From an uncultured Clostridia bacterium (GTDB lineage: Bacteria; Bacillota; Clostridia; UBA1381): 46,807 nt of DNA. Made by a program: the position numbers and the translations under genes. The stretch covers positions 1-46,807 of the forward strand of contig CALXWJ010000007.1 of assembly GCA_944392335.1 (NCBI GenBank), in the 5' to 3' direction. Shown here in pieces: positions 10,142 through 43,251 of the stretch (its first letter is position 1; each line of letters opens with the position of its first letter). Under the pieces are notes generated by a model that did no database searches, was not told where the DNA came from, and worked only from the letters and a program-made list of their open reading frames with translations.

Positions 10142-10169
10142 GGCATTGGGAAATAATAATCCCATTGCC
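10142..10169 (+). other. hairpin between potC and potD
   Basis: GGCATTGGG...CCCATTGCC (one mismatch) forms a stem in the 117-bp gap but has no T-run after it. It may protect the upstream mRNA segment or separate expression of the binding protein from that of the membrane subunits. Confidence 0.45.
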
Positions 10170-10250
10170 CTATGCAATTATTCACAAGCTTTATTTTAAG
10201 CATGCTTGACTGAGCTTTTTAAAATTAAAATTTGAAAGGATTTGATAATA

Positions 10251-19065: not shown

Positions 19066-19080
19066 TAATTGGAGCATATT

Positions 19081-19419: not shown

Positions 19420-19442
19420 TGTTAAAGATTGGAGTTAAAACT

Positions 19443-24867: not shown

Positions 24868-24908
24868 TTATGAGGCAGAAAAAATTTTCCTGCCTCATAT
24901 TTTTTTTG
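24868..24908. terminator. bidirectional terminator between GH95 and SGNH genes
   Basis: ATGAGGCAG (24870-24878)/CTGCCTCAT (24890-24898) with an A/T-rich loop and T8 on the plus strand. It ends the GH95 transcript and the long minus-strand surface operon. Confidence 0.85.
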
Positions 24909-24910
24909 AA

Positions 24911-27900
24911 TTATTTTATATAGGGTACCATTTGATTGCTGTTATTCGGTTGTGCGTCGCTTCCCCACAAGAAGAATTTATATGTTTTTCCAGTTATATC
25001 AATCTCTTGCGCTGAAAGGCTTATTTTCATAGTGTGTTTTTTCTCACTGCCGTTATATATTATAATATTCTTTCTCGGAACAACCTGTTCAAGTCTGCCT
25101 GTTTCGTCATATACAGCAAAGTATCCGTCATATCCATACTTATTCATAACATATTTTGATTCTATATCTATATTTATAATATCGTCTGTAATATACGGTT
25201 CACCGCCTGTGATTACATCTTTTCCGTAAAATTCATCATAAACGCTGTTCATATCATACCAAGGCGTCAGACGGAAAGAGTCTATTAAAAAGTACAGTCC
25301 CATAATCTGATTATTTTTATAATCGTCATCAAGCATAATTTTAATATACTCATTTCCGTTTCCTGTAAAATGAATTTTATCTCCATTACCCATATAAAAT
25401 TCAATTATAAAATCATCACTGTAATTTCCGCAGGCCCCGACACTGTGATATACCACTGTATCTTCTCCGCCGTTATATGCAATTTCAACTTTACATTCCA
25501 GTGCAAGACGTCCCGAATTTAACCAAGTATCAACAAGATAGTCGCCTTCCTCAATACTTCCTATATCCCATTTTACCCATATAAGGTCATCATATGAATC
25601 AACATCACCCAATGCATTTATCTGATCCTGTGTAACCTTTGTAGGTGCTTCTTCATATCGGCTGTGACCTGTTCCGGCTCTCTCTGCGCTGTTTACAACA
25701 TCGGACAGCTGTGCCATACTCAGTTTATAAGGTATATGTGTCGGTTCACTTAATGTTATATTAATTGCGTTTGATTCAATACCACCGATAAGTTCAACCT
25801 TTATTTCATATTCTCCTGCTTCAATAAATACATCTTCAGGAATAAATATCATATTATTTTTCAATTCATAATTTACAGATATGTTATTTACATACACTCT
25901 CGAAATAAATCTTTCATCAATTGTATCACTAAGTTTTATTACCCTTGCAACATTTGTATATGATGTGTTATTTTCACTTTCGGTAATCGTAATACTGTCA
26001 GGAACACTGTAAAATTCAGCTAACAGTTTTCCATCATCAAGAACTTGTGTAAGACTTATTACTTCGGCATAGAATCTGGACGTCATTGAAACAGGGGCTC
26101 CATTTGAAACCTTGATATATTCATCTTCTGTTCCGTTAAATTCAAATGTTCCAATGTTATGCCATGTATCATCCTTTGTAGTATTTATAGTAATACTGCT
26201 TGTACCGTCTGCAGATACAACTTCAACATTCAATTTTCCCATTGCATACTGTGTTCCGTTTATTGTCCCGTCGATATCAAACCAATCAAGCCTGTATACT
26301 CCTTTTAATTCTTCTCTGCCCTTCCATTTTACGCTTGCTGCCGGATCATTATTATATACCTGAAAAATATTTCCCGGATTTCCGCTCCAACCGATAATCT
26401 GTCCGTTTGTTTCAAACGGTACTCCTTCTTTTTCAATAAGTTTATCCGACATAGTATAGAAATACTGATCTATATCTTCTATTTCTACCTTATCATAATA
26501 TTTCACATTATTTTTATCGGTTATTTCAATATGATATGTTCCTGCTTTATCAAATAAAGCACTGTTAAACATAATTTTGCCGTCACTTATCTCATAATCC
26601 TTGTTCAGACTTAACCTTATACCATTCATGCTGACATCTGTTATTTCATCACATGAATAGGTAAATAACTCATATCCGCCAACCTTGTACGAATTATTTT
26701 CACTCGCAGTCAATCCTGACGGAAGGCTGTTCAACTCATTTATTTTTTCTTCTATTTCATTTAACTTTACACTTGCTTCGTCACTGATTGGTGTTCCGTT
26801 AAATTCAAGATATTCAACCTGTTTTTGTATTTCTGCTAATTCATCCAATGTTATACTGTAAGTATTCAAAGACATAATCTTTGATGAGATATAATCATAA
26901 TAACCCTTTATCACAAAATTATCGATATATATCGGATTGCTTTCGGTAACAGGCGCACTAAGCAAAATATACAGATCATCAAAACTATTTCCTCTTATTG
27001 TTGTTCCGCCCTGTGCTGATATTTCACCGTTTGTATATGTAGCTTCAACACCGTCAATAAAAAGCTTTTGATCGTTATTTTTAAAATTCATAATCAATTC
27101 ATACTTATGCATTTTACCAGCTTCGGGCCAATATGTGTTTTCCACATTCCAGTATCTTGATGCCGTATTATCAGCGTCCCTTACCCAAACTCTTGCAGGA
27201 TTGCTTTTAAGCATGGAGAATCTGTCGTTTGCAAGATCAGGCGCGTCACAGATTCTGATTCCGGCGTCATTAGTGTTTTGTAGTTCAAAACTCAAATATA
27301 TAATATCATAACTGTTTTCATCTATATCATGATGAATTCCTGTATGCTGTCCTCCGTATATTACAAGTTTTCCGTCTTTAACATCTACCGTCGCATCATC
27401 GGCTCCCTCATTTTTCATGCCGTTAAATACTTCCCAGCCCGGATCAACAAAAGAATCTTTAAGGTCACCGTCAAAATTACTTTCAAATCCGCCTATTGTC
27501 TTTTTAAGCTGCGGATTTTCATTCATAAAATCATCTATTGTTTTATATCCGTTTTCCGGAACAGAGCCGTTAACTGCCAGTCCGTATATAGCCATGCTTC
27601 CGTCTGATGTTCCGTCGGCACTTTCAAAATCAGCTCTTGTAATTGTTATTGTATGCTCGCCGTCGGGAAGATCTGTTTTTCTCCATAAAATATCATATTT
27701 TGTTGTGCTGTCTTTTGCCCCTTTTACATTTTCCAAAACATAATCACTTCCGTCAGCATTTCCGTTTGTAATTCTGATATTGAAGTTATTTCCTATTCTC
27801 GCTCCTCTAAGCATTGCAACCTTGCCGGTAAAATTAAAACTTATTGAATCGCCTGTTGTTGCTGTTTTAAGATGGTTCTTACCGTTATATGAGGACAGTC

Positions 27901-28912
27901 CCCATCCATCACCTGATATAACAGCTTCTGTAAAGGGCACGGTATTGAAATTATCATCATATATGTTTCCGCTGTATTTTGCTATACTGTTCAGATCAGC
28001 ATCCGATACTGCAAGATATTCTGACGGATTGTCCGACACTGTCTTTTCCATATATTCAGCATAAAGCTTTGTTCCTACTGTTGTGTTCGGATGAACACAG
28101 TCGTTAGGAGAATATACATCATTCTGTGTATAAGTATTACCATCCAGTGCCGCTGCACCGTTTGATATTACATTCTGTATATATGTATCAATATTTATTG
28201 ACGGTATTCCATATTTTTGTGCTATTTCCTCGTGAAGGTCAATACAAGGTCTTGGCATTACAAGTCTGCCTATTCTGTTATCGTCTGTTGCGGTATTTGC
28301 AATGTGTGTTTTACCCATTCCCACATAATTATATATAATTACAGGTCTGTCAGGCAATGCAAGAAGCTGTCTTGTTATGGCTTCCATATCGTTTTTAATG
28401 CTTGTAATTTTTCCCTCGTTAGGAGCATATGTATATCTTTTTCCGTTGTAAATAAGATATTCATGTCCCTCCTCATCAACAGGTAAAACATACTTACCAA
28501 GAGATACATCAAAATCAATCTGAGTATCTGCCTCACCTGATGCGTCCGATACAATTTCATTATGAGTTGAACGGTCATTTACCGAAAATTCAACAAATAC
28601 AATATCAGGATCATAAGCTACAACACTGTCATAAAGCCTCGCAATTCCGAAATCAGAACCTGTACCTCCCACACCTGCATTGTAGAAATTTACAGTTTTT
28701 CCGGTCTGTTCTTCAAGCCAATCACAAAATAATGCGCCGTAAGACTGTGTAGTTCCTCCCAATTCTGTAATTGAACCTCCTATTGCAACGCAGTTTATTT
28801 CATCTTTTCCGGCAAAATATCCGGAATAATCTTCCTGTGCTGCAAGAGCAGTCTGCGGCAGCTGCGTTGCAAGGATCATTAAAGCCGCAGTCAAACTAAC
28901 AATTTTTTTCAT
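24911..28912 (-). CDS. giant secreted SGNH/GDSL esterase with binding modules
   Basis: A 1,333-residue exported protein. The signal peptide ends around TALAA (24-25). The SGNH hydrolase domain (about 30-300) has block I AIGGS47ITELGG (Ser nucleophile), block II NAGVGGTGSD, block III FVEFSVN112DRS and block V D271CVH274PN, a complete catalytic set. A beta-sandwich follows (about 310-450), then a LamG-like domain (about 475-680), a short helical spacer, Ig-like beta domains and two CBM-like domains up to the C-terminus. SGNH members de-esterify glycans, e.g. acetylated pectin or xylan; the exact substrate is inferred. It has no SLH domain or sortase motif, so its anchoring is unexplained. It is the last gene of the surface cluster, 17 bp after the preceding one. 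Confidence 0.85.
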   Translation of the reverse strand: MKKIVSLTAALMILATQLPQTALAAQEDYSGYFAGKDEINCVAIGGSITELGGTTQSYGALFCDWLEEQTGKTVNFYNAGVGGTGSDFGIARLYDSVVAYDPDIVFVEFSVNDRSTHNEIVSDASGEADTQIDFDVSLGKYVLPVDEEGHEYLIYNGKRYTYAPNEGKITSIKNDMEAITRQLLALPDRPVIIYNYVGMGKTHIANTATDDNRIGRLVMPRPCIDLHEEIAQKYGIPSINIDTYIQNVISNGAAALDGNTYTQNDVYSPNDCVHPNTTVGTKLYAEYMEKTVSDNPSEYLAVSDADLNSIAKYSGNIYDDNFNTVPFTEAVISGDGWGLSSYNGKNHLKTATTGDSISFNFTGKVAMLRGARIGNNFNIRITNGNADGSDYVLENVKGAKDSTTKYDILWRKTDLPDGEHTITITRADFESADGTSDGSMAIYGLAVNGSVPENGYKTIDDFMNENPQLKKTIGGFESNFDGDLKDSFVDPGWEVFNGMKNEGADDATVDVKDGKLVIYGGQHTGIHHDIDENSYDIIYLSFELQNTNDAGIRICDAPDLANDRFSMLKSNPARVWVRDADNTASRYWNVENTYWPEAGKMHKYELIMNFKNNDQKLFIDGVEATYTNGEISAQGGTTIRGNSFDDLYILLSAPVTESNPIYIDNFVIKGYYDYISSKIMSLNTYSITLDELAEIQKQVEYLEFNGTPISDEASVKLNEIEEKINELNSLPSGLTASENNSYKVGGYELFTYSCDEITDVSMNGIRLSLNKDYEISDGKIMFNSALFDKAGTYHIEITDKNNVKYYDKVEIEDIDQYFYTMSDKLIEKEGVPFETNGQIIGWSGNPGNIFQVYNNDPAASVKWKGREELKGVYRLDWFDIDGTINGTQYAMGKLNVEVVSADGTSSITINTTKDDTWHNIGTFEFNGTEDEYIKVSNGAPVSMTSRFYAEVISLTQVLDDGKLLAEFYSVPDSITITESENNTSYTNVARVIKLSDTIDERFISRVYVNNISVNYELKNNMIFIPEDVFIEAGEYEIKVELIGGIESNAINITLSEPTHIPYKLSMAQLSDVVNSAERAGTGHSRYEEAPTKVTQDQINALGDVDSYDDLIWVKWDIGSIEEGDYLVDTWLNSGRLALECKVEIAYNGGEDTVVYHSVGACGNYSDDFIIEFYMGNGDKIHFTGNGNEYIKIMLDDDYKNNQIMGLYFLIDSFRLTPWYDMNSVYDEFYGKDVITGGEPYITDDIINIDIESKYVMNKYGYDGYFAVYDETGRLEQVVPRKNIIIYNGSEKKHTMKISLSAQEIDITGKTYKFFLWGSDAQPNNSNQMVPYIK

Positions 28913-28929
28913 TTTGAATCCTCCCTTGT

Positions 28930-30657
28930 TTAATTTAAATATAACAATCTGTATAATACAACTGCCGCTTCCGCTCTTGTTGTCCCGTTTTTCGGGTTAA
29001 AGTTTTTATTATCGTCACCTTTGACCAAGCCGAGCGTAACCGCTGTATTTACATAGTCCACAGCCCAATCGCTTATTTGTTCTTTGTCGTTAAAGTCGGA
29101 AATGTTTATCCATTGAGGTTCTTCATTTTCCAAAAGCCATGCCCCGACAATTATTTTTACCATTTCTTCTCTTGACACCGCGTCATTCGGTCTGAAACTT
29201 GTATCATCCGATATTATTCCCGCCTTTAAAGCTCTTTTTACATATGTACTAAACCAATCTGTGTCATTTACATCATTAAAACTTGATTCAGTGGTTTCAG
29301 TAAGATTAAATGCCTTAACCGTAAGCGTTACAAATTCCGCACGAGTTATTGTTCTGTTCGGTTCAAACATTTTGTCCCCGACTCCATTTATAATACCGTC
29401 TGAAGCAAGAGTTACAATTTCATTTTCCGCCCAATGATTAACAGTATCGTCAAATGTAATTTTTTCCTTGTCAATCTCAGGAATTATTGTAACTGTCTGA
29501 TTTGTATTTCCGGTATAACCGTTTGATGAAGTTGTACTGCCTCCGGTTCCGGAACCTCCACCGCCGGTTCCGCCTCCTCCCGAACCGCTTTCACCGGAAG
29601 ATGATGCATAATGAAATACTATTTTAATTGGTTCGCTGTCATTTTTCGCTCCGTTTACTGCCGATGCCTTTATTATAAAATCATCAATTTCAACATCTTT
29701 TATCAAATTATTTCTTGTTGAACCGCTGAATTTAATTTGTATCTTGTTTTCTTTTATATTTGAAGCAACATCACACTTAATTCCGTTTAATTCTTCAGGA
29801 AGAGTAAAATCATAATCTTCACCCTTAACGAAAGCACCATCTTTTATAATATTTCTTATCAAAACCTCAACTTCAAATGTACTTTTACTTGTGCTTACAT
29901 TTTTTTCATCATTCATATAAGCATTATAACTGTACTTATCCAATGTTACGGTATTTGCCGCACTTTCGGAATATATTGTAATTCCACCTATCTTATCTGA
30001 TGCGGTATTTGCTGTTCCAGATTTAATCAAGGAGCTGTTAAGTTTAATTTCAGGGCTGTAATTTTCAGTAACTTCTCCGCTTCCCGTTAGAGTAAATTCT
30101 ATTGTTTTTTCATTAACAGCCTCAGCTTCAAAAGAATATCCGGAAGGCAAATTTTCAGCCGTAAAATCCGAACTGTCCAATTCTCCCATATTTAACAATG
30201 CATTTGTTACATTTACAGTAATTTTATTATAATCAGGATCAGGTTTATTATCCTTAATCAACAGTATCTTGCCGCTTGATACCGATGCATTTAATTTTAC
30301 CGGGCTGTATGAATTTAAAGGTGCTGTAAAATTAAAGCTGTTTTCATCTGCCATCTCTCCCTTTAGCGTCACTTTGTATTCACCCGGTTCATAATCTTTT
30401 GCATTAATAACTGTTGTATATGCACCTTCTTCTCCGCTGATTATCTGGTCATAAAAAATCCTGTTTTCATTTGAATCATATACAACAACCGAAATATTTT
30501 CATCCGGTCCTGACTGTACGGTACCGTTTATAATTATCATTTCTTCAACCGGATCTATAACAGTGGATACTTCCAAACCGTACTGTGCAAATACACTTAT
30601 TGATATTGAAATTACTGCTATGCAAACTGCAAGAGCTGCAGCCATACTTTTTTTCAT
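28930..30657 (-). CDS. exported protein with Gly-rich linker and three SLH domains
   Basis: A 575-residue S-layer-anchored protein. Signal peptide 1-24 (SVFA). Residues 25-350 hold three or so beta-sandwich/Ig-like domains with no catalytic motif. A low-complexity Gly/Ser linker (about 353-375, GSGGGGTGGGGSG) leads to three SLH domains (about 400-450, 460-510, 525-572), recognised by HWAENEIVTLASDGIINGVGDKMFEPNRTITRAEFV, FRPNDAVSREEMV and FNPKNGTTRAEAAVVLYRLL. SLH triplets bind secondary cell-wall polymers, often pyruvylated, and hold the protein on the cell surface. The role may be display or adhesion; no enzyme is visible. It sits 17-24 bp from both neighbours, so it is co-transcribed with them. 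Confidence 0.85.
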   Translation of the reverse strand: MKKSMAAALAVCIAVISISISVFAQYGLEVSTVIDPVEEMIIINGTVQSGPDENISVVVYDSNENRIFYDQIISGEEGAYTTVINAKDYEPGEYKVTLKGEMADENSFNFTAPLNSYSPVKLNASVSSGKILLIKDNKPDPDYNKITVNVTNALLNMGELDSSDFTAENLPSGYSFEAEAVNEKTIEFTLTGSGEVTENYSPEIKLNSSLIKSGTANTASDKIGGITIYSESAANTVTLDKYSYNAYMNDEKNVSTSKSTFEVEVLIRNIIKDGAFVKGEDYDFTLPEELNGIKCDVASNIKENKIQIKFSGSTRNNLIKDVEIDDFIIKASAVNGAKNDSEPIKIVFHYASSSGESGSGGGGTGGGGSGTGGSTTSSNGYTGNTNQTVTIIPEIDKEKITFDDTVNHWAENEIVTLASDGIINGVGDKMFEPNRTITRAEFVTLTVKAFNLTETTESSFNDVNDTDWFSTYVKRALKAGIISDDTSFRPNDAVSREEMVKIIVGAWLLENEEPQWINISDFNDKEQISDWAVDYVNTAVTLGLVKGDDNKNFNPKNGTTRAEAAVVLYRLLYLN

Positions 30658-30681
30658 ACTTTTTCATTCCTTTCCCAATAA

Positions 30682-33600
30682 TCAATCTTCAAAGTATATT
30701 GCTCTTACAATATCTCCGATTGTTATAGCCCATAAATCTTCATTATACATTTCTGTTTTAGAAGCTCTTTTAAACTTTGTATGAGAACTGTTTGTACTGT
30801 ATATGCTGTATCCCGCGGTATCCAGCAAAACATACTTTTCTTCACCGTTTACAAGCGTTCTGATATATCCGCTTACAACCCCTGAGTATTGTCCCAAATG
30901 AACAAATTTTAAGCTTCCCGATGTAGACTCCTCCCATGGTTTTGAGAGTTTTATTACCTCTTTTACAACTATGCCGGAATTATATTTATTAAGCGAACCC
31001 GGAGAATACATCATATAGTCAAATTTTTCAATAGGAGAAGTTCCGCTTTTTAGTTTAAAATCCGATAAAACATTCAATGTGCTGGTACTGTCCCTTAATG
31101 AAATTTCATAGCTTGTATAGAATATATCGTCTTCATCACAATATTCATTCATATCCTCAATAAATCCAAAATTATTTGCATCCTGATAAACAGCATTTTC
31201 ATATTCGGTTAATATCATTATATCCGCTATCGGCTCGGTTTTTGCTACCAGAGCTTTAGCGCCTGATGCAAATTTATTTGTAAGATTCGTCCATTCTATC
31301 TTCTGAACTTCAAACTCACCGTTTACATCCTTTAAAAGGAATATCATATCGGGGTTTATACCTTTCCAGCTTCCGTCAAAGTATACTCTCACTGCACGAT
31401 AATCGAATTTATCTCCCAATGTAACCGCTCCGTTATTATACCATTCGATTGATTCTATTTTTGTTATAGTACCGTTTTTGGCAGTAAATTTGTATACTCC
31501 TCTGCCTTCTGTATCCTTACGGTTTTCAACTGCTTCATAATATCCCACTTCAGGATAATACAAGGTTTTATTTTTTATATTTACTTTGTATTCTCTTTCA
31601 ACAAGACTTCCGTTTTCTATTCTTGCCACTGTCAGATAGGGGTATTTACTATCATCCTCAGGTTCATCATTGTATTTTACAACAATCCCATAAAACTCCG
31701 CACTTGTATCTGCGCGCATGAATTTTGCGAAGCCCCTTGCATCTGTATAAACAACTACCGCAGCATTTAAAAATTCATTTGCTTCATGTGACGCGGAAAA
31801 TTCATTTTCACCGTTTACCGCAACATAAAATTTATTGTTTCTGTCGAATATTCTTTCACCGTCCTCTGTTTCCACAGTTATTGACTCATTGCTTATTGTT
31901 TTAAGTGTTCCCTCAGCCGAAACATCTGAAGCGACAACGGTCAATTCATCGTCTAACCAAATATAATCAAAATACATATTTGCTCTTAATGATTTTACGG
32001 TTGAAATGTTATTGTTAACAATAACTCTCATCGGTTTTACTTCACCGATATCTTCTATCTGAGAATATCCGTATATTCCGCTCTGATATGTTATAATATC
32101 CGAAGAAGCAGTTTCGATCAGACCTCCGTCGATCAATTCAAAAAGATCAATTCTTGTGATTTTACCATTTGTTACGGCGATTCTTGAAAACATATTTATA
32201 GGATAAACCGTACCTGTTAATTCAGCACCGTTTAAAGTAATAATCGCATCCTCCGATAATGCTGTCCTCACACAGTTTGTTGCAGCGACTCTTTTTATTT
32301 TGTCAGCAGTGTACTCATCATTGTCTTCAGATGAATTGACTTCTGTTATATATCCCCATACCAACGCGCTGTTTTTAAAAGAATACATATACGCAATATT
32401 TTCATAATTTTCGTCGATCCATACATACTGCATTGTATTTTTAAGATTATCTGAAACATTGTCATATGTACAGTAATAGGATAATCCCGTATCATTATCT
32501 GTAATACTTACACTTTTTTGACTTATATTACAATCATTCACATAACACTCAATCTCAATAAGTTTATGATACTTCCAAAGAATATTAATTGATTCATCAA
32601 TTGCATAAGACGCATCCTGTCCGGAGCTTACCGTTAATACCATTTCGGGTGCTGTTAACGCATTTTCCATTAATATGAATGAATCTTTTAAATTCATATA
32701 TTGTCTTTGGCTTATCACATTTATATTGTCAAGAAGATCATATTTATATGCCATCGCCATATACCCGTTGGGCCAGCCCCCCTGAAGTTCTGCGGCAATA
32801 TTATAATTATTTATATTGCATATAATTGTAACCGCTTCACTTAACATTATATAATCATCAGGTCTGAAATTTTCATCCAACGCGATAAATTCCATTCTCT
32901 GTGCCATATTAATTGCAGAAAACTGAGGATGAGAAGCCGGTACATCCGCATAAACCTGTGTCATTGAAGTTGCCAAGTTAAGACCTAAAGTCTGCATAAC
33001 CAGTTCCACAAATTCCCCTCTTGTCAGTTTTGTTTCCATTTCATAGTCTGAAATCGAAGCCGGAATAGCGTCCAAAGCAGATAATTTCATATAGCTTTGC
33101 GCGAAAAAATCATCCTCAAATTCTACATCTCCCAGTTCACCTGCATAAATATAAACATTATCATAACAGGCACTGCCGGATTTTGTTGCATCCATATAAA
33201 ATCTTATTTTTTCAATAGCCGCACCTGAAAAAGTCGGTACTGCAGGTGAATAATTTCTGTCATAATACTTTTCTATCATTACATCGTCAACATACGCCGT
33301 AAGTGTTTTATCGGTGTAGTTAAAATCAATTCTGTACCTGTGCCATTCATTCATTGAAGGCTTTGTATCGGTTGTATTATAAAAGAAATAGGGGCTATTG
33401 TCAGCAGTTCTAAGAATAGGTCCTCTTCCGTCTCCCAAAAGAGTAAAGAAATCATAAAAATTTCCGTCAGCAAATTTCACCTGTATAATTGCCTGCTGTC
33501 CTCCGCTGTTCTTAGCCTCGAATTCAAAGGTAAAATTACCGGAATAATTTAAATTCAAAACTGGTGCATCACCCTGACTTACGCCTGATTCCACAGATAA

Positions 33601-33777
33601 ATACGAACTGTCTTCACTCAGAATTTTATATCCGCTTTCACCTGCTGAAAAAACAGAGTCAGGCACAAAATTTTCAAAATCCTGTACAATATTTAATTTT
33701 GATGCCGCATACACCGGATTTAGCGTACTCATACAGCATATTAATGCTGCAAACGCAGCTGTAAATCGTTTAAGCAT
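30682..33777 (-). CDS. exported LamG-type and SLH-domain protein
   Basis: A 1,031-residue exported protein. Signal peptide 1-24 (NPVYAA). A LamG/concanavalin-like domain follows (about 26-215; FEFEAKNSGGQQAIIQVKF, WHRYRIDFNYTDKTLTAYVDDVMI). Then come two SLH-like repeats (about 220-345; TRGEFVELVMQTLGL, FRPDDYIMLSEAVTIICNI), less canonical than in the neighbouring SLH proteins. The remaining ~650 residues are beta-rich with no motif I recognise. SLH repeats in the middle rather than at an end are unusual. It is probably a surface binding or structural component. The ribosome site AGGAGG lies 6 nt before the ATG. Gaps: 121 bp upstream, 24 bp downstream. Confidence 0.75.
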   Translation of the reverse strand: MLKRFTAAFAALICCMSTLNPVYAASKLNIVQDFENFVPDSVFSAGESGYKILSEDSSYLSVESGVSQGDAPVLNLNYSGNFTFEFEAKNSGGQQAIIQVKFADGNFYDFFTLLGDGRGPILRTADNSPYFFYNTTDTKPSMNEWHRYRIDFNYTDKTLTAYVDDVMIEKYYDRNYSPAVPTFSGAAIEKIRFYMDATKSGSACYDNVYIYAGELGDVEFEDDFFAQSYMKLSALDAIPASISDYEMETKLTRGEFVELVMQTLGLNLATSMTQVYADVPASHPQFSAINMAQRMEFIALDENFRPDDYIMLSEAVTIICNINNYNIAAELQGGWPNGYMAMAYKYDLLDNINVISQRQYMNLKDSFILMENALTAPEMVLTVSSGQDASYAIDESINILWKYHKLIEIECYVNDCNISQKSVSITDNDTGLSYYCTYDNVSDNLKNTMQYVWIDENYENIAYMYSFKNSALVWGYITEVNSSEDNDEYTADKIKRVAATNCVRTALSEDAIITLNGAELTGTVYPINMFSRIAVTNGKITRIDLFELIDGGLIETASSDIITYQSGIYGYSQIEDIGEVKPMRVIVNNNISTVKSLRANMYFDYIWLDDELTVVASDVSAEGTLKTISNESITVETEDGERIFDRNNKFYVAVNGENEFSASHEANEFLNAAVVVYTDARGFAKFMRADTSAEFYGIVVKYNDEPEDDSKYPYLTVARIENGSLVEREYKVNIKNKTLYYPEVGYYEAVENRKDTEGRGVYKFTAKNGTITKIESIEWYNNGAVTLGDKFDYRAVRVYFDGSWKGINPDMIFLLKDVNGEFEVQKIEWTNLTNKFASGAKALVAKTEPIADIMILTEYENAVYQDANNFGFIEDMNEYCDEDDIFYTSYEISLRDSTSTLNVLSDFKLKSGTSPIEKFDYMMYSPGSLNKYNSGIVVKEVIKLSKPWEESTSGSLKFVHLGQYSGVVSGYIRTLVNGEEKYVLLDTAGYSIYSTNSSHTKFKRASKTEMYNEDLWAITIGDIVRAIYFED

Positions 33778-33898
33778 ATTAAACCTCCTACATTTTTACA
33801 TATAAAGTAAATCACATATCAATTCACAAATCATTTTATCACTCAAATCCCAAACAATTCATATAATCATTTTAACATAATACGTATATGTGTTTCTT

Positions 33899-36800
33899 TT
33901 ATTTGTAATATATATTTGTAACGGGTGTTAAATCATTATGCCATACAAATACTTTCACCATGCCGTTTTCAGACAATGTTCCGAATTCAAGCGTTTCATT
34001 TACTTTAACATTGCTTTGCGCTTCAACTGACACCTGTTTTATGATACACTTATCTATTTTCCCGGTATCAGTATAATAACATATGATTACCAAACAATCC
34101 TGACTTTGTTGCGTGGTATTTTCCAACACTGCATTTACATTTGCATATTGCGCATTTTTAGAATCGGACATAATAACATTATTTTTATCGTAATATGAAA
34201 TCTGTGCAGCAGCTTCGATTTCGTTATTCTTACCCGAAAGTACATATGTATATGGTCTTGAAATATTGCTGCTGTTAATATTCAAATAATATGTGACCGT
34301 TTCACGTATCGGATATTGAGGGGTTATGGTAATTTCATTTTCATCTGATATAACATCAATACTCATTTTATTACCGTTTTCACTGTAAATTGAAACAGCA
34401 TCGGCTGAAATTACAGCATCTGCACTACATTTAATAACTACATTGCCGAAGATATTATTATTGTTTAATCCTTCCTTTAACTCTTCTGTATGTTCATCAG
34501 AATCAGATATTTCAACTGTATTTATGTTAAACATTTCTCCTGTTTTTTCAAACATTACAGCGGATAATCTTGGCATAAGTGATGACATATCAATTTCCAC
34601 GCTGCAGTCAGTGCCCTTATTCATCTTATATGTACCCAATTTTTTCCATCCGGATGACTGACTTTGTGCAACGCTTGCTGTTTCGGTTCCATTTTCATAT
34701 CTGACTGTAGCAGAATAATCTTTATTTGAGCTGTGATATGATGTATAAATATAAACTGTATACTCGCCGCCTTCTGTAATAGTATGCGTAAAGCTTGCAA
34801 TTCCTGAAGTTCCATAAACCGATGTTATTCCGTTATATCCCGGTTCAACCGCATCACCGCTTGTAAATAATGATGATGTTGTTGTAAATCCATTATCATT
34901 AACGGTTACAATAATAGGTTCTGATCCTATAGCAACCGAATTAGGTGAAAGAACATATATATCATACGGCAATAAAGGCTGAGGATCCTGAGGAGTCACT
35001 TTTACAATTTCATCACCGGTTATTACACCGTCCGTTTTTTCCTTAAATTGTTTTGTATACAACTTTATTCTTCCGTAATCAGACGCCGAAAGTTTACTCA
35101 AAAAATCATTTACACCAATTCCCTTGTCGAATCCGGAAATAATATGTTGTTGTGCATCTACATTAATTCCATCCTTTCCGGTAAGAATTGATGTTACGCT
35201 TCCGCTGTCAACATTGAGTAAGTATTCTCTTTTTTCTCCGTTCTGAGCTATTACATAAATTTTATCACCATCAAAAACCTGACCCTCATAATCTTCTGAA
35301 TAAGGATAAACCACTTTTGCATATTCAGAAATTAATATTACTTTTTTTAAATCTTTAAAATATGTACCATACGGTATATTTGAAATTGTATTTTCTCCTA
35401 TCTCATAATTTCCTGCATCAATAATATAATTTTCAGATGACGCCGGTATTACAGACAAATTAAATGTATATTCGTTATCACCTAAAGTTATCAGAAGAAT
35501 ATCATTATCAAGTATGTCCTGTGTGTTTTCTGTTTCACCCGTATAGATTTTAGCTTCTGCCGCATCAGCCCTTATAATTTTTTTCAGGAATTCTTCCGTC
35601 GATGTATTGTAAGGAATTTGTGATATATTTTCTCCATCAAGTTTATAATCAATTACAGCTATTGTTTTATCTACCGTAATGTTATATATTATCTGTGATT
35701 CTGCCTGAGTATCTACAAATAATTTATCATCATTTTCAATAATATCTTCCTCACTTTTTCCTTCTACACTATATTTTTTTGCAGAAGCAAAATTAATGTA
35801 CGATAAAAATTCAGAAACCGTCTGTCCATCCAAAACTCCTCTGACGGTGTGGTTCTCATTATCTATATCATAAATATCTGAGGTAAGATTAATTGACGTT
35901 AATGCATTTTCCCAATACAGCAGCTTATCATAGTTTGATATTTCTGACTCTGTTATTCCCAATGCAAACATTTCATCAGCCGCATTTCTTGCGTATTCGA
36001 TTTTTTCTGTTAAATCATCAGGCGCACTTTCACTTTCTTCGGGCAAAAGATTAATAAAATATTCTGCATATTTTGTTGGCGAATACACCTTTACGTTATC
36101 CCAGTATACACCTATTTCGGGAGCACTTCCCGTCCAGTCCTGATCTTTTTCAGTATTAATACCGAATTCTATTGATGTCATTCCTGTCCAGTCCTTAACT
36201 GCAGGTATAATATCCTGTGTAAGAGTTTCATTTGTTACCGATGCTTTAACACCGTTTATATATGTTATAATTTCACCGTCAAAATCTATTATCTGACGAA
36301 CACTGTATACTCTTTCGTCATCCATTAAAAGCGGTTCATCCTCAAATGAAAGCCACATTGCACCGTATGACGGATCTCTCATAAGGGTTCCTCGTGCATT
36401 GATCCTTGAACTCCACAATGAGTACCCCATTTTATCAGGTCTTGGCGTTTCATTTTCATAATGAGCGTTTGTCATTATCCATAGCTGTTTATTTGTAAGT
36501 CCTCTTTGTATAATATCGTATTCCACAACCACCTTGTCTTTGATCGTTTCAAATCCTATTTTATTTGCCCGGAAAAAGATGCCGTCAATATAAATCGGTT
36601 TTACTTTCATGGCAAGCATATTACTGCCCTTGTAGTTTTCGATTGAGCTTGTAACCTTGTCCTCCTGAGAAAATGAATTCGGATTTTCACTGTCATTTAT
36701 AAGATTATTTATCTGCATATACTGTTCATAATCCCTGTAGTTGAATTTATCACTGTATAAAACGCCGTCTGTATATGTTTTTAAATAATATTCTTTTTTC

Positions 36801-37459
36801 TCCCCGTCAATGTCTGCTACAAGTTTATCGGAATCCTCAATCACTCCGAATTTTTCAAAACCGTCAAAGTCAAGTACCTGCACATTTGCTGCTTTGGGTA
36901 TCGTTATATTTTCCAGTAAATCATTTACAGTCGTGGTATATGGAATATCATATATGACATTCAAAGAATTGTTTACTGTATATATACCGGAAGTAATTTC
37001 TAAAGATTCCCCTGCATATACCAGTTTTATTCCCGAATATCTTGACTGTCCGTCTGTTGTAAAGGTCAATACCGTATTTCCTTCATTAAACAGGCTTTTT
37101 CCGACATTCTCCCAGCCTGTTTTGGTATTTACTCTAAATCCGATATTCATATTGTCCGACTTTAAAGTACAATTACCTGCATCGGCTTCAACTCCGCTGA
37201 AAAACCAGTATATATCATAATCACCTGTATAGGGCAGGGTTACCGATATATTTGCAGACGCATTATTGCCCACGCTGTAGTAGCCGAAATCGTTATAATG
37301 AATACCTGTCGAATTTGTTGATGTATTCCATGTTCCCGTAACGGGAGTAAAGCTTTCGGCGCCAAAAATAAACTCTTCGCCGACATTTGCCGCTAATACC
37401 GTTATTGAGTTTATAAGCACCATACTCACTGCCAACAAACATGATAAGATTTTTTTCAT
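33899..37459 (-). CDS. secreted multi-module CBM/LamG/beta-repeat protein
   Basis: A 1,186-residue exported protein with no enzyme domain that I recognise. Signal peptide 1-24 (VLAA). Modules: CBM-like beta-sandwich (about 25-150); beta-repeat 1 (158-226); LamG-like domain (227-470, ending VYWDNVKVYSPTKYAEYF); helical spacer (470-530); beta-repeats 2-5 (530-835); second CBM-like domain (850-975, EGGEYTVYIYTSYHSSNKDYS); Ig-like domain (980-1080); C-terminal beta domain to 1186. The five ~65-75-residue repeats share a core like IPY-x-T-x2-(E/D)FL and a D-x-(I/L)-x-V strand. I chose the ATG at 37459 because the in-frame GTG ten codons upstream overlaps the AAAGGAAA ribosome site. It is likely a glycan-binding surface protein. 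Confidence 0.78.
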   Translation of the reverse strand: MKKILSCLLAVSMVLINSITVLAANVGEEFIFGAESFTPVTGTWNTSTNSTGIHYNDFGYYSVGNNASANISVTLPYTGDYDIYWFFSGVEADAGNCTLKSDNMNIGFRVNTKTGWENVGKSLFNEGNTVLTFTTDGQSRYSGIKLVYAGESLEITSGIYTVNNSLNVIYDIPYTTTVNDLLENITIPKAANVQVLDFDGFEKFGVIEDSDKLVADIDGEKKEYYLKTYTDGVLYSDKFNYRDYEQYMQINNLINDSENPNSFSQEDKVTSSIENYKGSNMLAMKVKPIYIDGIFFRANKIGFETIKDKVVVEYDIIQRGLTNKQLWIMTNAHYENETPRPDKMGYSLWSSRINARGTLMRDPSYGAMWLSFEDEPLLMDDERVYSVRQIIDFDGEIITYINGVKASVTNETLTQDIIPAVKDWTGMTSIEFGINTEKDQDWTGSAPEIGVYWDNVKVYSPTKYAEYFINLLPEESESAPDDLTEKIEYARNAADEMFALGITESEISNYDKLLYWENALTSINLTSDIYDIDNENHTVRGVLDGQTVSEFLSYINFASAKKYSVEGKSEEDIIENDDKLFVDTQAESQIIYNITVDKTIAVIDYKLDGENISQIPYNTSTEEFLKKIIRADAAEAKIYTGETENTQDILDNDILLITLGDNEYTFNLSVIPASSENYIIDAGNYEIGENTISNIPYGTYFKDLKKVILISEYAKVVYPYSEDYEGQVFDGDKIYVIAQNGEKREYLLNVDSGSVTSILTGKDGINVDAQQHIISGFDKGIGVNDFLSKLSASDYGRIKLYTKQFKEKTDGVITGDEIVKVTPQDPQPLLPYDIYVLSPNSVAIGSEPIIVTVNDNGFTTTSSLFTSGDAVEPGYNGITSVYGTSGIASFTHTITEGGEYTVYIYTSYHSSNKDYSATVRYENGTETASVAQSQSSGWKKLGTYKMNKGTDCSVEIDMSSLMPRLSAVMFEKTGEMFNINTVEISDSDEHTEELKEGLNNNNIFGNVVIKCSADAVISADAVSIYSENGNKMSIDVISDENEITITPQYPIRETVTYYLNINSSNISRPYTYVLSGKNNEIEAAAQISYYDKNNVIMSDSKNAQYANVNAVLENTTQQSQDCLVIICYYTDTGKIDKCIIKQVSVEAQSNVKVNETLEFGTLSENGMVKVFVWHNDLTPVTNIYYK

Positions 37460-37585
37460 ATCAAAAACATTTCCTTTCTGTATTTTCACCCTAAGTCGGG
37501 CAAAAACGCAATATTACTGTATGTTAATAAATTACCAATTTAATTTAAACATTACCTTGTTTTTTTCAATTTAAGATAAATCACT

Positions 37586-40500
37586 TTATTTTCCGGCTTT
37601 TAACTGATATGTAAAATATGATTTGCAGTCGCCTGAAATTACTGTTATAAATACACCCGCATCGCTTTTCCATAACTTGACATCGGCATTTTTGCCTGCG
37701 GTATATTTTATATCGGAAGATAATAAGCTGTCTATATCAAGATCGGTATAATATATAGATCTGTCAGGTTCAAATGATGCTACATTTTCACCGTTTATAC
37801 TAAGACTTGTAAGATACGGATTTGCACCTTGTGATTTTGGTGCTCTGATTATAATATTGTCAAGACAATATCCGCCTCTTGCGGAATCGGTTGATGCGTT
37901 TCCGTCGGTTGTATCAAATATAAACTGATTTACGCTCGTAACATCCGAAACATCGAGCGCCGCTTTTTCCTTTACCAATTCACCGTTAATGTAAATATCA
38001 TAATACTTTTCTGCAAGATTAAGTTTGACATGAATATCATACCAAGTATCAGGTGTATATTTCATAAGACTTGTATTTTTATTTGTGCCGTCATATATAT
38101 TTCCGTCAGTTGCAAATGTTATTCTTGCGGCACATCCTCCGGTTGTTCCGTTTTGAGTAGTATAATATCCTGTTTTATATAAACCTACCGAAAAAGCACC
38201 GGTTGACTGCTTCAAAAGTACAGATACACTCATCTCAACATAGGAATCCTGAGGATCAAAAAATCTGTTTCCGTATTGTCTTGTTGCTTCTTCATCACGA
38301 CATTCAAAAACCTTGTTCATAGGATTTGTAATATCCTGTGAAACCTTTACATTTAAAGGTGAATAGCTTCTGAAAAACAATCCGGCAGGTCTTTCGCCTA
38401 TCACATCATTTTCAAAATCATCATAAACGAGTGTTGTAAGATTTCCTGTTTCCGGAATACGTCCCGACATATACTTTTCTTTTGCTTCTTTGATTTTACC
38501 TATTAACTCTTTTTTTACATTATCATCATTATTTTCCGCTGAATTCAATCCTTCATTTGCAAGTGTACTCAATTCTTCCTTTAAATCAGCCGGATACATT
38601 CCGGGGGCTGTTCCCGCTTCGGTCGAATTTACAAGTGCCTTTGCCGATAATGCTTCGGAATAAAGTGCATCTTCAAGGCTTATGGTTGTAAAGCTTGCAA
38701 CACCATCTGTGTTCCATCTTTGTTCATATCCAAGCATCGGAGTGGATTTTACTCTCCAATAATATGTGGTTCCGTAATCGAAATCAAATGAAGCCTCACC
38801 GTCAGTTGTATTTTTATAATATATTATATTTTTAAATTCGGGATCATCGCTTATAAATACTTCATATGATCTTACTCCGCCTTTTCCCTGTTCCCATTTT
38901 AAAGTAACCTCAGTGGGAATATTCTGTTCTGCGTTTTTTGGGTAAACAGTAGAAAATTCATCTGCTCTGTTATCATATATTATTGATTGTGTATCCTTTC
39001 TTTCTCCGCCCGTATATGTACCTATCTGATCAAACGGTATCGGTTCAAATTCCGGACATACTTCCTGAATTTTTGAAAAATCAAAATCGTAAAAATCAGT
39101 CAGGTCACTCTCAGGCAGTCCTTCAAATTCAACCATCGGAGTAGATGTTCCCCCGTATGTTGAAATACAGTCCTCGTAAGTAGATTTACCGCTGTTAAAC
39201 GCGACGTTGTTTTTTACCTCATTTCCGATAGGATCTCCAAAGGAATCTGTAAAGTTCTGATATGCCTGCGGATATTTACTTTTATAAGGTTCTTCATCTA
39301 CCGAATATGTTTCAAGGTTGCTCCATATCGGTCCGCCCACCGAAATAGATTTTTCTATACCTGTCTTTACAACATTTATAGGGGTATCGCAGTTGATATA
39401 TAAATTGTTGTAAATTTTATTATATCTTCCTCCATGTAAAAATGTACCCGGTTCTTTCGCGTTATAAACAACATTGCCGTATATTTCAACACCCGAGGTA
39501 CAGTCGTCTATATATATACCCAACGCACCTTCTCCCGAAAAACCGGGAACAGGCATAAGACCTACCGAATCCTTTACAATATTATATCTTATTATGGTAC
39601 CGTATCCAAGCCCGTAATTAAGATAATAAATTCCGCCCGTATCACCCATTTCAAGGTTAGTTCTTTCAACAATATTGTATTCTATGATATTTTCCATTCC
39701 GCCTCCCGATATACCGTGAGTAAGAATATTGTATATATGATTGTTCGCCACACTGTTTGAACATCCTGTAATTGTTATACCCTGTTTTGAACCGCCGCCT
39801 GTTCCGACATCGTGAACTTCATTGTTTTCCGCTCTGTTATTTCCGGGAGTAAGAGTATACAAATTACCTCCGTTTACTGAAATGCCAACAGCACCCACAT
39901 ACGAAACATCACAGTCTCTTACTGTATTATTATAGCCGTTTAATGAAATACCGTTACCCGACACATAACATACTTCTCCGCCTATATACATACAGTTTTC
40001 GCTGTTTTCGGAAAATACGACTCCTGCCGCTCCTCCTACTTCAACGTCAATGTTTTTCATAACAACATTCTTTGTGTCGCCAAACTTTATAACTTCAAAA
40101 TTCTGAGAAGCAAATTTTAAGTCCTGTCCTATTGAATCGGAGAACGGATAAAGATACAATTTGTTATTGTCATAGTCTATGTACCATTCTCCCTCTGTAT
40201 CTATTTCCGATAACAAATGTTCAGCAAAATATCTCGCATAACCGTAATTTCCAAGACCGTTCCAGTCACGCCCCACAATTCTCATATTATCAACATCGAC
40301 ATCCGCGATACTTGCGTAGTTAATTGTATAAGGAGTCATCCAATATCCGTTTAACCAGCCATTTTCCTCATCTGCCCATCTTAATTGTCTTGCGTCAGAT
40401 ATTTCATATGTAAATCCTTTTTTCCTCGGTCCGGAATCAGATCTTGCACCTGTATCAATAATCTCACCGGTTTTTCCGTAACCGACATTCGGCCATCTTG

Positions 40501-41551
40501 CAAGTGTTCCTCTGTTATCTCCCATTACCAAAATATATGGAGTGCTGTTTACAAGGTCCATTTTGGGGACATTGTAAATTCCCGCATCAGCCAGATTTAT
40601 TTCATACAAATGTTCTCTGCCTTCCTTCGGAACTTTATTTAATATACTCTCATCCGTCACCTTTTTCATTAAATCAGAAGAAATATTTTTTCCTGCGGTA
40701 AACACAACTTTTTCGTCCTCATACGGCATATAAAATATCGGAGTATCCTCTGTGGCCGAGCTTTCTTCTCCTATTACAAATGTTTCGGACAACGCATATA
40801 CACCTTCTCTGAACAATACACAAATGCCGTCGTTCTGATACAGTCCCTCATCTTTATATTTTCTTAAAGCATTTTGCAGTTCTACCATCGTTCCATAAGG
40901 TTTTTCAAAACTTCCGTCACCGCCTGTGGCTTCGGGTGACATATATATTTTAAACGCGTTTTCTTTCGGCTCGGGCAAAGTAATGTCACGGCTTTTTAAT
41001 TCCTTTACCGAATAGCCGGGATATTCACCGTCATTTATTTCTACCAAAGCCGCGGCACTGTCATCCTTTTCAATTAATCTGTATACAACGGCATTAGGTC
41101 TTATAAATCCGTTTGCGGTTGCTTTTTTTGCAACCACCTTTGACCTGTTACCGGCAGGAATCTGATATTCTCCAAGACTTACCAAACCGGATTCTCCTTC
41201 TTTGTGCGCTAATTCAACCGAATTCATAAGCGTGTCATCAACATAGACAGAAACCTCAATTTTATCGGCATTTGTTGAATATACAAGATTGTAGTAAAAA
41301 ATTTCATATTTTCCTCCGTTTAATAGCATGGGAGAAAATATTGCCTCTGCCGAATCGTCTTCCGTATCATATACCGAACTCGTATCATTATATCCCTTTA
41401 ATGACGAACCACTAAAACTTCCGTTTGACGAAAATTCTCCTGAATCCACCGTTATTACAATATCCTCATACTCCGCAGAAAAAGCAGGCAAGGAACAAAA
41501 CATCATAGATGCCATCAATATCAACGAAACTATTTTTCTTTTCATGTTCAT
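37586..41551 (-). CDS. secreted GH141-like right-handed beta-helix enzyme
   Basis: A 1,321-residue exported protein. Signal peptide 1-26 (LPAFSA). A CBM-like domain (about 27-165) precedes a right-handed parallel beta-helix (about 200-800). Its opening MSPEATGGDGSFEKPYGTM, the segment LARWPNVGYG and the rungs NNRAENNEVHDVGTGGG and GDTGGIYYLNYGLGYG resemble family GH141, the fucosidase/xylanase-type enzymes acting on pectic or xylan side chains. Next come an FN3-like domain (about 870-955), a FIVAR-like helical spacer (957-1035), a LamG-like domain (1040-1250) and an Ig/cadherin-like C-terminus. The GH141 assignment rests on motif resemblance and I cannot fix the catalytic residues. The ATG at 41551 has AAAGG 6 nt upstream. 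It lies 28 bp behind the SLH-only gene. Confidence 0.78.
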   Translation of the reverse strand: MNMKRKIVSLILMASMMFCSLPAFSAEYEDIVITVDSGEFSSNGSFSGSSLKGYNDTSSVYDTEDDSAEAIFSPMLLNGGKYEIFYYNLVYSTNADKIEVSVYVDDTLMNSVELAHKEGESGLVSLGEYQIPAGNRSKVVAKKATANGFIRPNAVVYRLIEKDDSAAALVEINDGEYPGYSVKELKSRDITLPEPKENAFKIYMSPEATGGDGSFEKPYGTMVELQNALRKYKDEGLYQNDGICVLFREGVYALSETFVIGEESSATEDTPIFYMPYEDEKVVFTAGKNISSDLMKKVTDESILNKVPKEGREHLYEINLADAGIYNVPKMDLVNSTPYILVMGDNRGTLARWPNVGYGKTGEIIDTGARSDSGPRKKGFTYEISDARQLRWADEENGWLNGYWMTPYTINYASIADVDVDNMRIVGRDWNGLGNYGYARYFAEHLLSEIDTEGEWYIDYDNNKLYLYPFSDSIGQDLKFASQNFEVIKFGDTKNVVMKNIDVEVGGAAGVVFSENSENCMYIGGEVCYVSGNGISLNGYNNTVRDCDVSYVGAVGISVNGGNLYTLTPGNNRAENNEVHDVGTGGGSKQGITITGCSNSVANNHIYNILTHGISGGGMENIIEYNIVERTNLEMGDTGGIYYLNYGLGYGTIIRYNIVKDSVGLMPVPGFSGEGALGIYIDDCTSGVEIYGNVVYNAKEPGTFLHGGRYNKIYNNLYINCDTPINVVKTGIEKSISVGGPIWSNLETYSVDEEPYKSKYPQAYQNFTDSFGDPIGNEVKNNVAFNSGKSTYEDCISTYGGTSTPMVEFEGLPESDLTDFYDFDFSKIQEVCPEFEPIPFDQIGTYTGGERKDTQSIIYDNRADEFSTVYPKNAEQNIPTEVTLKWEQGKGGVRSYEVFISDDPEFKNIIYYKNTTDGEASFDFDYGTTYYWRVKSTPMLGYEQRWNTDGVASFTTISLEDALYSEALSAKALVNSTEAGTAPGMYPADLKEELSTLANEGLNSAENNDDNVKKELIGKIKEAKEKYMSGRIPETGNLTTLVYDDFENDVIGERPAGLFFRSYSPLNVKVSQDITNPMNKVFECRDEEATRQYGNRFFDPQDSYVEMSVSVLLKQSTGAFSVGLYKTGYYTTQNGTTGGCAARITFATDGNIYDGTNKNTSLMKYTPDTWYDIHVKLNLAEKYYDIYINGELVKEKAALDVSDVTSVNQFIFDTTDGNASTDSARGGYCLDNIIIRAPKSQGANPYLTSLSINGENVASFEPDRSIYYTDLDIDSLLSSDIKYTAGKNADVKLWKSDAGVFITVISGDCKSYFTYQLKAGK

Positions 41552-41579
41552 ATCTTTCCTTTCACGTATTCATAAAAAA

Positions 41580-42203
41580 TTAAAGATCAGCTTTTTTTGT
41601 TATTTCCAGTGTGTTTATCAGAGAATAAATCATATCAGCCGCCTGTGATCTGTTTATTTCAAGCAAAGGCTCAAACAGTAAAATATCATTATATCCCTTT
41701 GCAAAACTAAGCATTGTGCCTTTTTTAACATAGTCCCTTGCCCAGTCCGAAATATCATAATAATCGGTAAAATATGTTGCCATATCTCCTGCCGGGGAAA
41801 GATCATATTTACTCTGGTATATTTCAACCAAAATTTTTACTGCCTGTTCATGATTTATAAATCCGTTGGGTTTAAAGGTATTATCTTCATATCCGTTTAT
41901 GTATCCCATATTTACCGCAATGTTCACATCATTATAATACCAATCGGAATTATTTACATCAGAAAATTCATTGACAATGCCTTCATTGTATCCCATTGCC
42001 CTGTTTATCATCGAAACAAATTCCGCTCTTGTTACTTTTTTTTGGGGAGCAAACAAATTATCCCCGACACCCTCGACAATACCCCTTTGCGCAAGATATT
42101 CAATCTTATCCTTTGCCGGATCATCTGATATGTCGTTAAATTCCGCATAAGCAGTTTGTGTCATCATCAAAACGGTCAACAAAAACAATAAAATTTTTTT
42201 CAT
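41580..42203 (-). CDS. exported protein made only of three SLH domains
   Basis: A 207-residue protein: signal peptide 1-20 (TAYA), then SLH domains at about 21-70, 78-128 and 140-198 with essentially nothing else. Seen: LAQRGIVEGVGDNLFAPQKKVTRAEFVSMINRAMGY, DWYYNDVNIAVNMGYINGYEDNTFKPNGFINHEQAV and DWARDYVKKGTMLSFAKGYNDILLFEPLLEINRSQAADMI. Such a protein should bind the secondary cell-wall polymer with no displayed cargo, so it could be an adaptor, a competitor or a surface-occupancy regulator. It is the first gene of the surface cluster, divergent from the AraC regulator across a 217-bp very A+T-rich gap. Confidence 0.88.
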   Translation of the reverse strand: MKKILLFLLTVLMMTQTAYAEFNDISDDPAKDKIEYLAQRGIVEGVGDNLFAPQKKVTRAEFVSMINRAMGYNEGIVNEFSDVNNSDWYYNDVNIAVNMGYINGYEDNTFKPNGFINHEQAVKILVEIYQSKYDLSPAGDMATYFTDYYDISDWARDYVKKGTMLSFAKGYNDILLFEPLLEINRSQAADMIYSLINTLEITKKADL

Positions 42204-42420
42204 AAATATTTTCCTTTCCTTAAAAAAATATCATTTTGGGAAAAAATAATAATATTAGATTTTTTATTATTTTTCAATCAATTTGTTCAATTTTAAACTC
42301 TAAAATCATTATTATATTATGCATTTTTTTCTTATAATAAAAATATAACACATTTTTTTTTGAAATTCCATTGTAAAATGACTAATAAATATGTTAAAAT
42401 GAGAATAAAAAAGGAGTGGG

Positions 42421-43251
42421 ATGAAAATGTCAAAAAAAGAGTTTTATTATGTGTCACTCTCTGACGGAGATGCTTCACTAAGAGTAAGATTCATTTTTGC
42501 CAACACAGCTTCTTTTACGGGAAGTGATATACCGTGCTACATTTTACGTTTTATTATCTCGGGCTCATTGGATATTTGCGGCAAGATTTTTACCAAAGGT
42601 CAATGTATTTTATCTACTCCCTCAATAAATACTCATAGTGGCTATACTCCAAGCAAAGATTTTTTCTGCGTAGGTGTAGCTTTTGATGGTATGCATTCCG
42701 ACAAACTAATGGATGATTTGAAAATAAAACAAATAAATCCTCCTTTTTTTGCGCCTATATATGATATTGATGAACTAATTAAAATTTACATAGATTTATC
42801 TGATTTATATCCTGATGCTGAATATATACAGGCAGATCCTCCTCAGATATTATCACAAATTACAGCAAAAAGCTATTTTTACAGAATGCTTCACTCACTT
42901 GAAAATCAGGAAGAAATGCAGATAGAAACAAAAACACGAAAACTTCTTGTTGCCGCTGAAGAATATATGAGAAACAATTTTAATAAATCGGTTACTATAG
43001 ATGATACCGCAAAATTTCTTTCAATAGACCGCCGTTCCTTATATAATCTGTTTATAAAGCACTCTGGAATTTCACCAAAACAGTACCTTAATAACATAAA
43101 AATTTCACGTGCCTCTGATTTATTACTCAATACCGATAAAAACATATCAGAAATAGCAGAAATTATGGGTTATAAAGACCCTTTCCAGTTTTCTTCTTTT
43201 TTTAAAAAGCAAACGGGGTTATCTCCAAAAAAATACCGCTCGTCTATATAA
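42421..43251 (+). CDS. AraC-family transcriptional regulator
   Basis: A 276-residue regulator. The N-terminal ~150 residues look like a cupin-type ligand-sensing domain (CYILRFIISGSLDICGKIFTKGQCILSTPS). The C-terminal ~100 residues are the two-helix-turn-helix AraC/XylS DNA-binding domain: VTIDDTAKFLSIDRRSLYNLFIKHSGISPKQYL, then ISEIAEIMGYKDPFQFSSFFKKQTGLSPKKYR. The ligand is probably a sugar. AAGGAG lies 4 nt before the ATG at 42421; an ATG at 42427 has a better spacing of 10 nt and is equally likely. It is divergent from the surface cluster, so it is the natural candidate for its activator (inference). A terminator follows directly. Confidence 0.88.
   Translation: MKMSKKEFYYVSLSDGDASLRVRFIFANTASFTGSDIPCYILRFIISGSLDICGKIFTKGQCILSTPSINTHSGYTPSKDFFCVGVAFDGMHSDKLMDDLKIKQINPPFFAPIYDIDELIKIYIDLSDLYPDAEYIQADPPQILSQITAKSYFYRMLHSLENQEEMQIETKTRKLLVAAEEYMRNNFNKSVTIDDTAKFLSIDRRSLYNLFIKHSGISPKQYLNNIKISRASDLLLNTDKNISEIAEIMGYKDPFQFSSFFKKQTGLSPKKYRSSI

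Follow-up and report, generated by a model that had tools for sequence, protein, structure and literature searches.

The locus studied here raises the question of how a bacterium might keep a set of exported glycan-active proteins at its surface, and of whether this set is one of a kind. It lies in a 46,807-nucleotide stretch of DNA (hereafter the window; contig CALXWJ010000007.1, assembly GCA_944392335.1) from an uncultured Clostridia bacterium of the lineage UBA1381. A sequence-only reading of the window had described six exported ORFs on one strand next to a divergent AraC regulator, and both are borne out. The six ORFs (24911-42203, minus strand; 5,663 aa in all) form one tight operon with intergenic spacing of 17-121 bp and are transcribed in the order P6, P5, P4, P3, P2, P1. 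All six proteins carry a signal-peptide-like N-terminus, as judged by eye and without SignalP, and the divergent AraC gene is separated from the operon by a 217-bp gap. The P4 ORF opens at a GTG at 37489 (33899-37489), and its probable start is the ATG at 37459. A promoter-like site and a terminator-like hairpin flank the operon; promoter-like sites in the region are not clearly more frequent than expected by chance, and terminator-like matches are no more numerous than chance predicts (8 observed against 8.0), the rest of them lying inside coding regions. Elsewhere in the window, 19069-19736 holds a toxin-antitoxin-like pair, a Gp49/HigB-like gene (PF05973) followed by that of an HTH protein.

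Table 1. Features of the locus and of the surrounding window (window coordinates).
Feature	Coordinates	Strand	Description	Evidence or remark
P6	41580..42203	-	207-aa secreted protein, three SLH repeats only	PF00395 5.6e-32; triple-SLH profile 153 bits
P5	37586..41551	-	Predicted GH141-like right-handed beta-helix enzyme; Golvesin_C-like N-terminal domain, sialidase-like CBM at C-terminus	Matches to 5mqp/BT_1002 and 9rx2
P4	33899..37459	-	~1186-aa secreted repeat/CBM-like protein	Golvesin_C x2, 5e-12
P3 (B)	30682..33777	-	LamG-like domain, degenerate SLH, tandem beta domains	Leave-one-out profile; AlphaFold2/Foldseek for SLH
P2 (A)	28930..30657	-	Ig-like N-terminus, Gly-rich linker, C-terminal triple-SLH anchor	PF00395 1e-39; triple-SLH profile 223 bits
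P1	24911..28912	-	Predicted 1333-aa SGNH esterase	PF13472 1e-12; PDB 6hfz 1.7e-9
P7	42421..43251	+	AraC-family regulator, divergent from operon	PF12833 1.5e-21; kept beside operon in sister species
Promoter-like site TTGAAA-17-TATTAT	42249..42277	-	Upstream of P6	Consensus scan
Terminator-like hairpin, 14 pairs	24869..24899	-	Just 3' of P1, operon end	Consensus scan only
GH95 gene	22532..24841	+	Convergent to operon, no signal peptide	PF22124 6e-129
GH123 gene	4482-6104		In window, not part of operon	
ABC importer operon	7408-11375		In window	ATPase with TOBE_2, two permeases, SBP_bac_6/8 binding protein

Pfam and PDB sequence matches uphold the GH141-like, repeat/CBM and SGNH proteins of the earlier description. 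P5 matches BT_1002 (PDB 5mqp) at 6e-8 by sequence and at 5e-38 with a family profile, and its D637 and D682/D683 fall in register with two Asp of BT_1002 spaced 41 residues apart, which we take to be the catalytic residues of that enzyme. By beta-helix homology and this Asp pair, P5 is predicted to be GH141-like. P1 presents a putative nucleophile, S47 in GGSIT, and an Asp/His block, DCVHPN at 271-276, and would thus possess the GDS-type nucleophile and Asp-His block of SGNH esterases. Its best solved relative, the GDSL-like protein 6hfz, presumably a CE17 mannan acetylesterase, is matched over 82 residues only. In Pfam, Golvesin_C is found in P4 and, under the gathering score, also in P1 and P5.

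Both GH95 and GH123 are present elsewhere in the window, as had been reported, and they bear on the nature of the substrate. Together with the fact that the GH141 and SGNH families are not specific to pectin, they would suit a surface machinery of the same kind acting on a host glycan (mucin-type, fucosylated, N-acetylgalactosamine-bearing) instead of a plant polysaccharide such as pectin. However, GH123 lies 18 kb off and outside the operon, and sister loci of the order encode GH28, GH88 and GH106, which are typical of pectin; we hold a host substrate to be unlikely, if well worth keeping in mind. The GH95 gene is a possible intracellular partner of the operon, and in a sister species its position falls beyond the contig end. 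No carbohydrate importer is encoded between 24911 and 43251. The ABC importer operon of the window lies 13.5 kb from the glycan locus, with unrelated genes between, and is probably of an iron or polyamine type rather than a sugar type.

What, then, could hold these proteins at the wall? The sequence of P1, P4 and P5 holds nothing that would fix them there. A cellulosome-like assembly was considered and dropped, as neither dockerin nor cohesin domains are found among the Pfam matches of the operon proteins; they are likewise missing from the A family tallies and from the 25 most frequent families of sister-locus neighbours. The sequence-only reading had listed two SLH-anchored proteins and one LamG-SLH protein. 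The two anchors stand, with triple SLH repeats on P6 and on P2, the latter including three TRAE-type motifs. For P3 the picture is more nuanced: its LamG and SLH scores (17.0 and 17.7 bits) are under the Pfam cut-offs, its SLH region is upheld by an AlphaFold2 model and Foldseek (6cwr, 2e-5), and its LamG region shows a weak likeness to CBM66. The P3 model was built from 23 sequences at low confidence (58), and we use it for the SLH region only and treat LamG with caution. SLH-GH141 proteins in relatives suggested that P6 and P5 might be a split SLH-GH141 enzyme; the best matches of P6 are A-type anchors (defined below), and the idea was rejected.

We used P3 and the SLH family as genome queries, and retrieved and annotated all 40 loci with a P3-like gene (B). 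The typical arrangement is a pair: a protein ending in three SLH repeats (A), followed by an 840-1030-aa protein with a degenerate SLH on its N-terminal side (B). Direct pairing with A is seen for 33/40 B genes, with gaps mostly of -1 to +58 bp, and the unpaired rest includes fusions and cases with an intervening gene. Two natural fusions are single polypeptides, one joining A to B (L123:6219-10532, 1438 aa) and one joining an SGNH domain to B (L122:7516-11589, 1358 aa). Two unpaired, divergent B-like proteins of this genome (L139:8758-11910, 1051 aa; L136:3763-7479, 1239 aa) lie outside GH141 loci.

P3 belongs to this family. When kept out of the B profile it is still matched at E 1.4e-36 over profile positions 29-721 of 922, and by this profile evidence it is a true but divergent B-family member, with the longest branch in the B tree. 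P2, encoded 24 bp after P3, has the C-terminal triple SLH and the adjacency to B that characterise A proteins, while its Ig-like N-terminus does not significantly match those of other A proteins (leave-one-out E 0.046). The gene order here is B then A, the reverse of every other A–B pair found. Given the P2 N-terminus, the branch length of P3 and the reversed order, the studied locus is the most deviant of the A–B loci.

The pairs keep constant company. GH141-like genes are present in 31 of the 33 A–B stretches and, genome-wide, 58/68 GH141-like genes have a B no more than 10 kb away, on the same strand in every case, against a chance expectation of at most 25% of positions, or 12% with the same strand required. 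The first 20 loci were chosen around SLH matches, but this statistic is independent of that choice, since both families were searched genome-wide; the binomial estimate assumes mutually independent genes, which the GH141-like genes are not, and the association is very large nonetheless. Further neighbours of paired B in this genome are GH29/GH42/GH95/GH3/GH4-type enzymes, SGNH proteins, Big_5 and CBM domains, SBPs and permeases; in relatives they are GH28, GH88, GH106, GH2, CBM9, F5/8 type C, SBPs and permeases. Regulators also occur beside the pairs, and glycan-gene neighbours are retained in relatives that lack GH141. From these gene neighbourhoods, the studied locus is probably one of roughly 35 surface glycan-degradation loci in the genome, nearly all with an A–B pair.

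This recurrence qualifies two earlier claims. The locus is indeed transporter-less, yet several sister loci have SBP and permease genes, and six of the 14 SBP_bac_1 genes of the genome have a B at a distance of 10 kb or less; a missing importer is common among A–B loci, and is neither general nor defining. The proposed Gram-positive analogue of a PUL held by SLH domains survives in that the locus is PUL-like and SLH-associated, is passed on as one unit and has an architecture repeated some 35 times, but the SLH repeats sit on a separate A–B pair and not on the enzymes. Consequently, attachment of the enzymes is only putative.

One could argue that such loci are ordinary SLH-attached degradation systems in the style of Paenibacillus or Caldicellulosiruptor, in which A and B would be no more than numerous S-layer paralogues carried along with the enzymes. 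Carbohydrate proteins with SLH are frequent in such bacteria: Paenibacillus sp. JDR-2 has 77 SLH genes, with SLH fused to glycanases (PMC4765114). In addition, the A–B distance-matrix correlation (r 0.34) is not above that of A and GH141 (0.31). We had considered A–B coevolution as proof of contact and discarded it as unspecific, because a correlation no higher than that of A with GH141 points to inheritance as a locus and not to contact. Yet in Paenibacillus the SLH sits on the enzyme, whereas here three SLH repeats are found on 2/54 GH141-like ORFs of A–B loci. The fixed adjacency, the near-zero gaps in 33 loci and the natural fusions argue for a joint role of A and B, and we consider it quite unlikely that the two are passengers.

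The preferred reading, in which A and B act together, gains from the history of the B family, which is found in 61/61 sampled genomes of the order. A tree of 80 B proteins places 26 solitary B in one clade (SH-aLRT 100), sorted by family, with paired B as a deep radiation outside it. Solitary B occurs once per sampled genome, measures about 850-900 aa and is surrounded by housekeeping genes. It is presumably a housekeeping S-layer protein of the order, as its copy number, its SLH region and its csaB linkage suggest. In other orders of the phylum, A-paired B was seen in 0/16 B loci; in three of these 16 (L149, L152, L153) a solitary B lies near csaB, with CsaB over the NCBIfam curated cut-off. 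Judging from these gene neighbourhoods, the A–B arrangement in glycan loci looks derived within the order, with a wall- or S-layer-type protein as its source. In two further cases (L156, L163) solitary B-family genes lie near RND efflux permease genes; such neighbours suggest diderm Bacillota and a possible link of B to an outer envelope.

The core B of this genome, modelled from an 80-row alignment, reaches a mean pLDDT of 91.9, and its three-SLH unit superimposes on that of SpaA-SLH with pyruvylated ligand (Z 19.5, 2.7 A over 161 residues). Beyond the SLH, beta structure runs on for about 650 residues, which we read as small beta-barrels. Mainly single OB-type domains align with this region (Z 5-7 in VIA-align), and these matches may reflect only a common small-barrel arrangement. 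The full-length fold of B found no match, and beyond the SLH Foldseek returned only DDB1 propellers (TM 0.1 or less), a lack of full-length match that in itself proves nothing. The B family is an uncharacterised, order-wide family in which an SLH region leads into tandem small beta-barrels. The pyruvylated SLH ligand is made by CsaB, which is encoded in 40/41 genomes and is over the cut-off in the source genome.

The kinship of B with a presumed core S-layer protein also invites a different view: A–B pairs could be alternative S-layer modules, with the GH141 and SGNH enzymes remodelling the cell's own wall or S-layer glycan. The position of B near csaB in three genomes outside the order, and the missing importer in most loci, would fit this view. 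On the other hand, neighbours such as GH28, GH88, GH106, GH42, GH29, CBM, ABC importers and AraC speak for use of nutrient glycans, and 40 copies with differing enzymes suit many substrates better than one surface. We regard remodelling of the own surface as very doubtful.

Returning to nutrient glycan use by an A–B unit, SLH strength differs between its partners. Measured with one profile, which is derived from A and hence favours A, the median is 199 bits for A, and core B and paired B reach 79 and 39 bits; in the studied locus the same profile gives 223 bits for P2, 153 for P6 and 27 for P3. Subject to this bias, the values point to A as the anchor and to B as a partner that anchors itself poorly. 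Counts of TRxE motifs proved unusable as a measure of SLH binding, for core B is also near zero with a simple pattern.

Building on gene content, synteny, recurrence, the family membership of P3, SLH folds and csaB, we infer a scheme for regulation, A–B contact, enzyme retention and substrate: (I) P7 would sense a sugar and turn the operon on, (II) the SLH trimers of P2 and P6 would attach to the pyruvylated secondary cell-wall polymer, (III) P3, whose own SLH is degenerate, would be kept at the wall with or by P2, (IV) P3 would form a local S-layer-like platform, where its LamG-like domain may bind glycan, (V) P5 and P1, which share Golvesin_C/CBM modules with P4, would de-esterify and trim a decorated polysaccharide near the cell, and (VI) importers with genes elsewhere would take up the products, and intracellular enzymes such as GH95 would complete their breakdown. 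Overall, we give a probability of about 0.6 to the reading that the locus is a surface glycan-degradation unit organised on an A anchor and an S-layer-like B paralogue.

The locus is not confined to this genome. A sister species within the genus has, on two contigs with an overlap in P4, the divergent AraC gene, P6-P5-P4-P3-P2, a 246-aa gene, an extra GH141-like gene and P1. The insert between P2 and P1 (L002:7089-12054) thus comprises the 246-aa gene and a 1407-aa GH141-like paralogue that is 39% identical to P5; this gene pair is missing from the studied locus, whose P2 and P1 genes have 17 bp between them. The sequence-only reading had proposed a search for conserved neighbourhoods, with homologues scattered and never together as the result that would speak against it. 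The genes do occur together, in the same order, in the sister species; the exact set is not widespread, with full-length P4 in these two genomes only among the 41 searched. DNA identity between the two is about 96-97% over 28930-43234 (very nearly P2 to AraC), with 87-90% at the AraC end, and 75% in P1, the left boundary falling sharply at the P2 stop codon; the genes beyond AraC differ. As a yardstick of divergence, the core B gene is 84-85% identical at the DNA level; it was used instead of the LysRS gene of the window, which found no match in the sister genome. For other SLH loci, identity between the two genomes runs from 75 to 98.7%, an unevenness that suggests mosaic loci or exchange between species. 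The P2-AraC block looks like the exchange of a locus cassette.

In sum, gene neighbourhoods, modelled folds and recurrence suggest an SLH-based organisation of glycan use in this order. Tentatively, and somewhat short of an even chance, the order of Bacillota may have made its S-layer protein the basis of a modular PUL system, in which most polysaccharide loci have their own B and a dedicated A, substrate-specific S-layer patches cover the cell and hold enzymes and glycan in a manner that is neither cellulosomal nor of the SusCD type, and A–B is a sequence marker of PULs. If the pair is a working unit, it offers a simple gene signature by which the glycan loci of a little-known order could be found and counted, connects S-layer biology with the acquisition of nutrients and opens a surface assembly that lacks dockerins or sortase to direct testing. 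Even were A and B just passengers of the enzymes, some 35 parallel loci in a 3.6-Mb genome would denote an unusual glycan specialist. Our literature search found no paper describing the A–B SLH pair.

Comparison with known systems places the locus between several of them. Like Sap and SpaA, the B family has the SLH trimer fold, as superimposed above for core B, but B continues as tandem small beta-barrels and is multi-copy in glycan loci. P5 shares the beta-helix profile match and two spaced Asp with BT_1002, and differs in being distant in sequence, a predicted enzyme with extra Golvesin_C and CBM modules. As in Paenibacillus sp. JDR-2, SLH would keep polysaccharide degradation at the surface and SLH genes number in the tens, whereas here SLH is on separate proteins encoded beside the enzyme. 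Gram-positive PULs have been defined by a degrading enzyme, a carbohydrate transport system and a transcriptional regulator (PMC5320581); the studied locus has two of the three, the enzyme (by homology) and the regulator, and is missing the transport system. It resembles the PULs of Roseburia and E. rectale (PMC5320581) in its clustered CAZymes and regulator, with an ABC importer in some sister loci, and departs from them by the missing transport system and the added A–B SLH pair. With Bacteroidetes PULs, the genome shares many loci, each with an adjacent surface-protein pair, glycan enzymes and a regulator; unlike there, A and B are SLH proteins that would bind the wall and provide no transport across a membrane, and neither SusC/SusD nor TonB transporters appear in the Pfam results for the window. 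By analogy, the locus would work like a PUL with A–B in place of SusC/SusD, yet it is not a member of the Bacteroidetes class. Gram-positive polysaccharide loci have so far been without a sequence marker like SusC/SusD, and an order-wide A–B SLH pair could mark glycan loci here as SusC/SusD does in Bacteroidetes.
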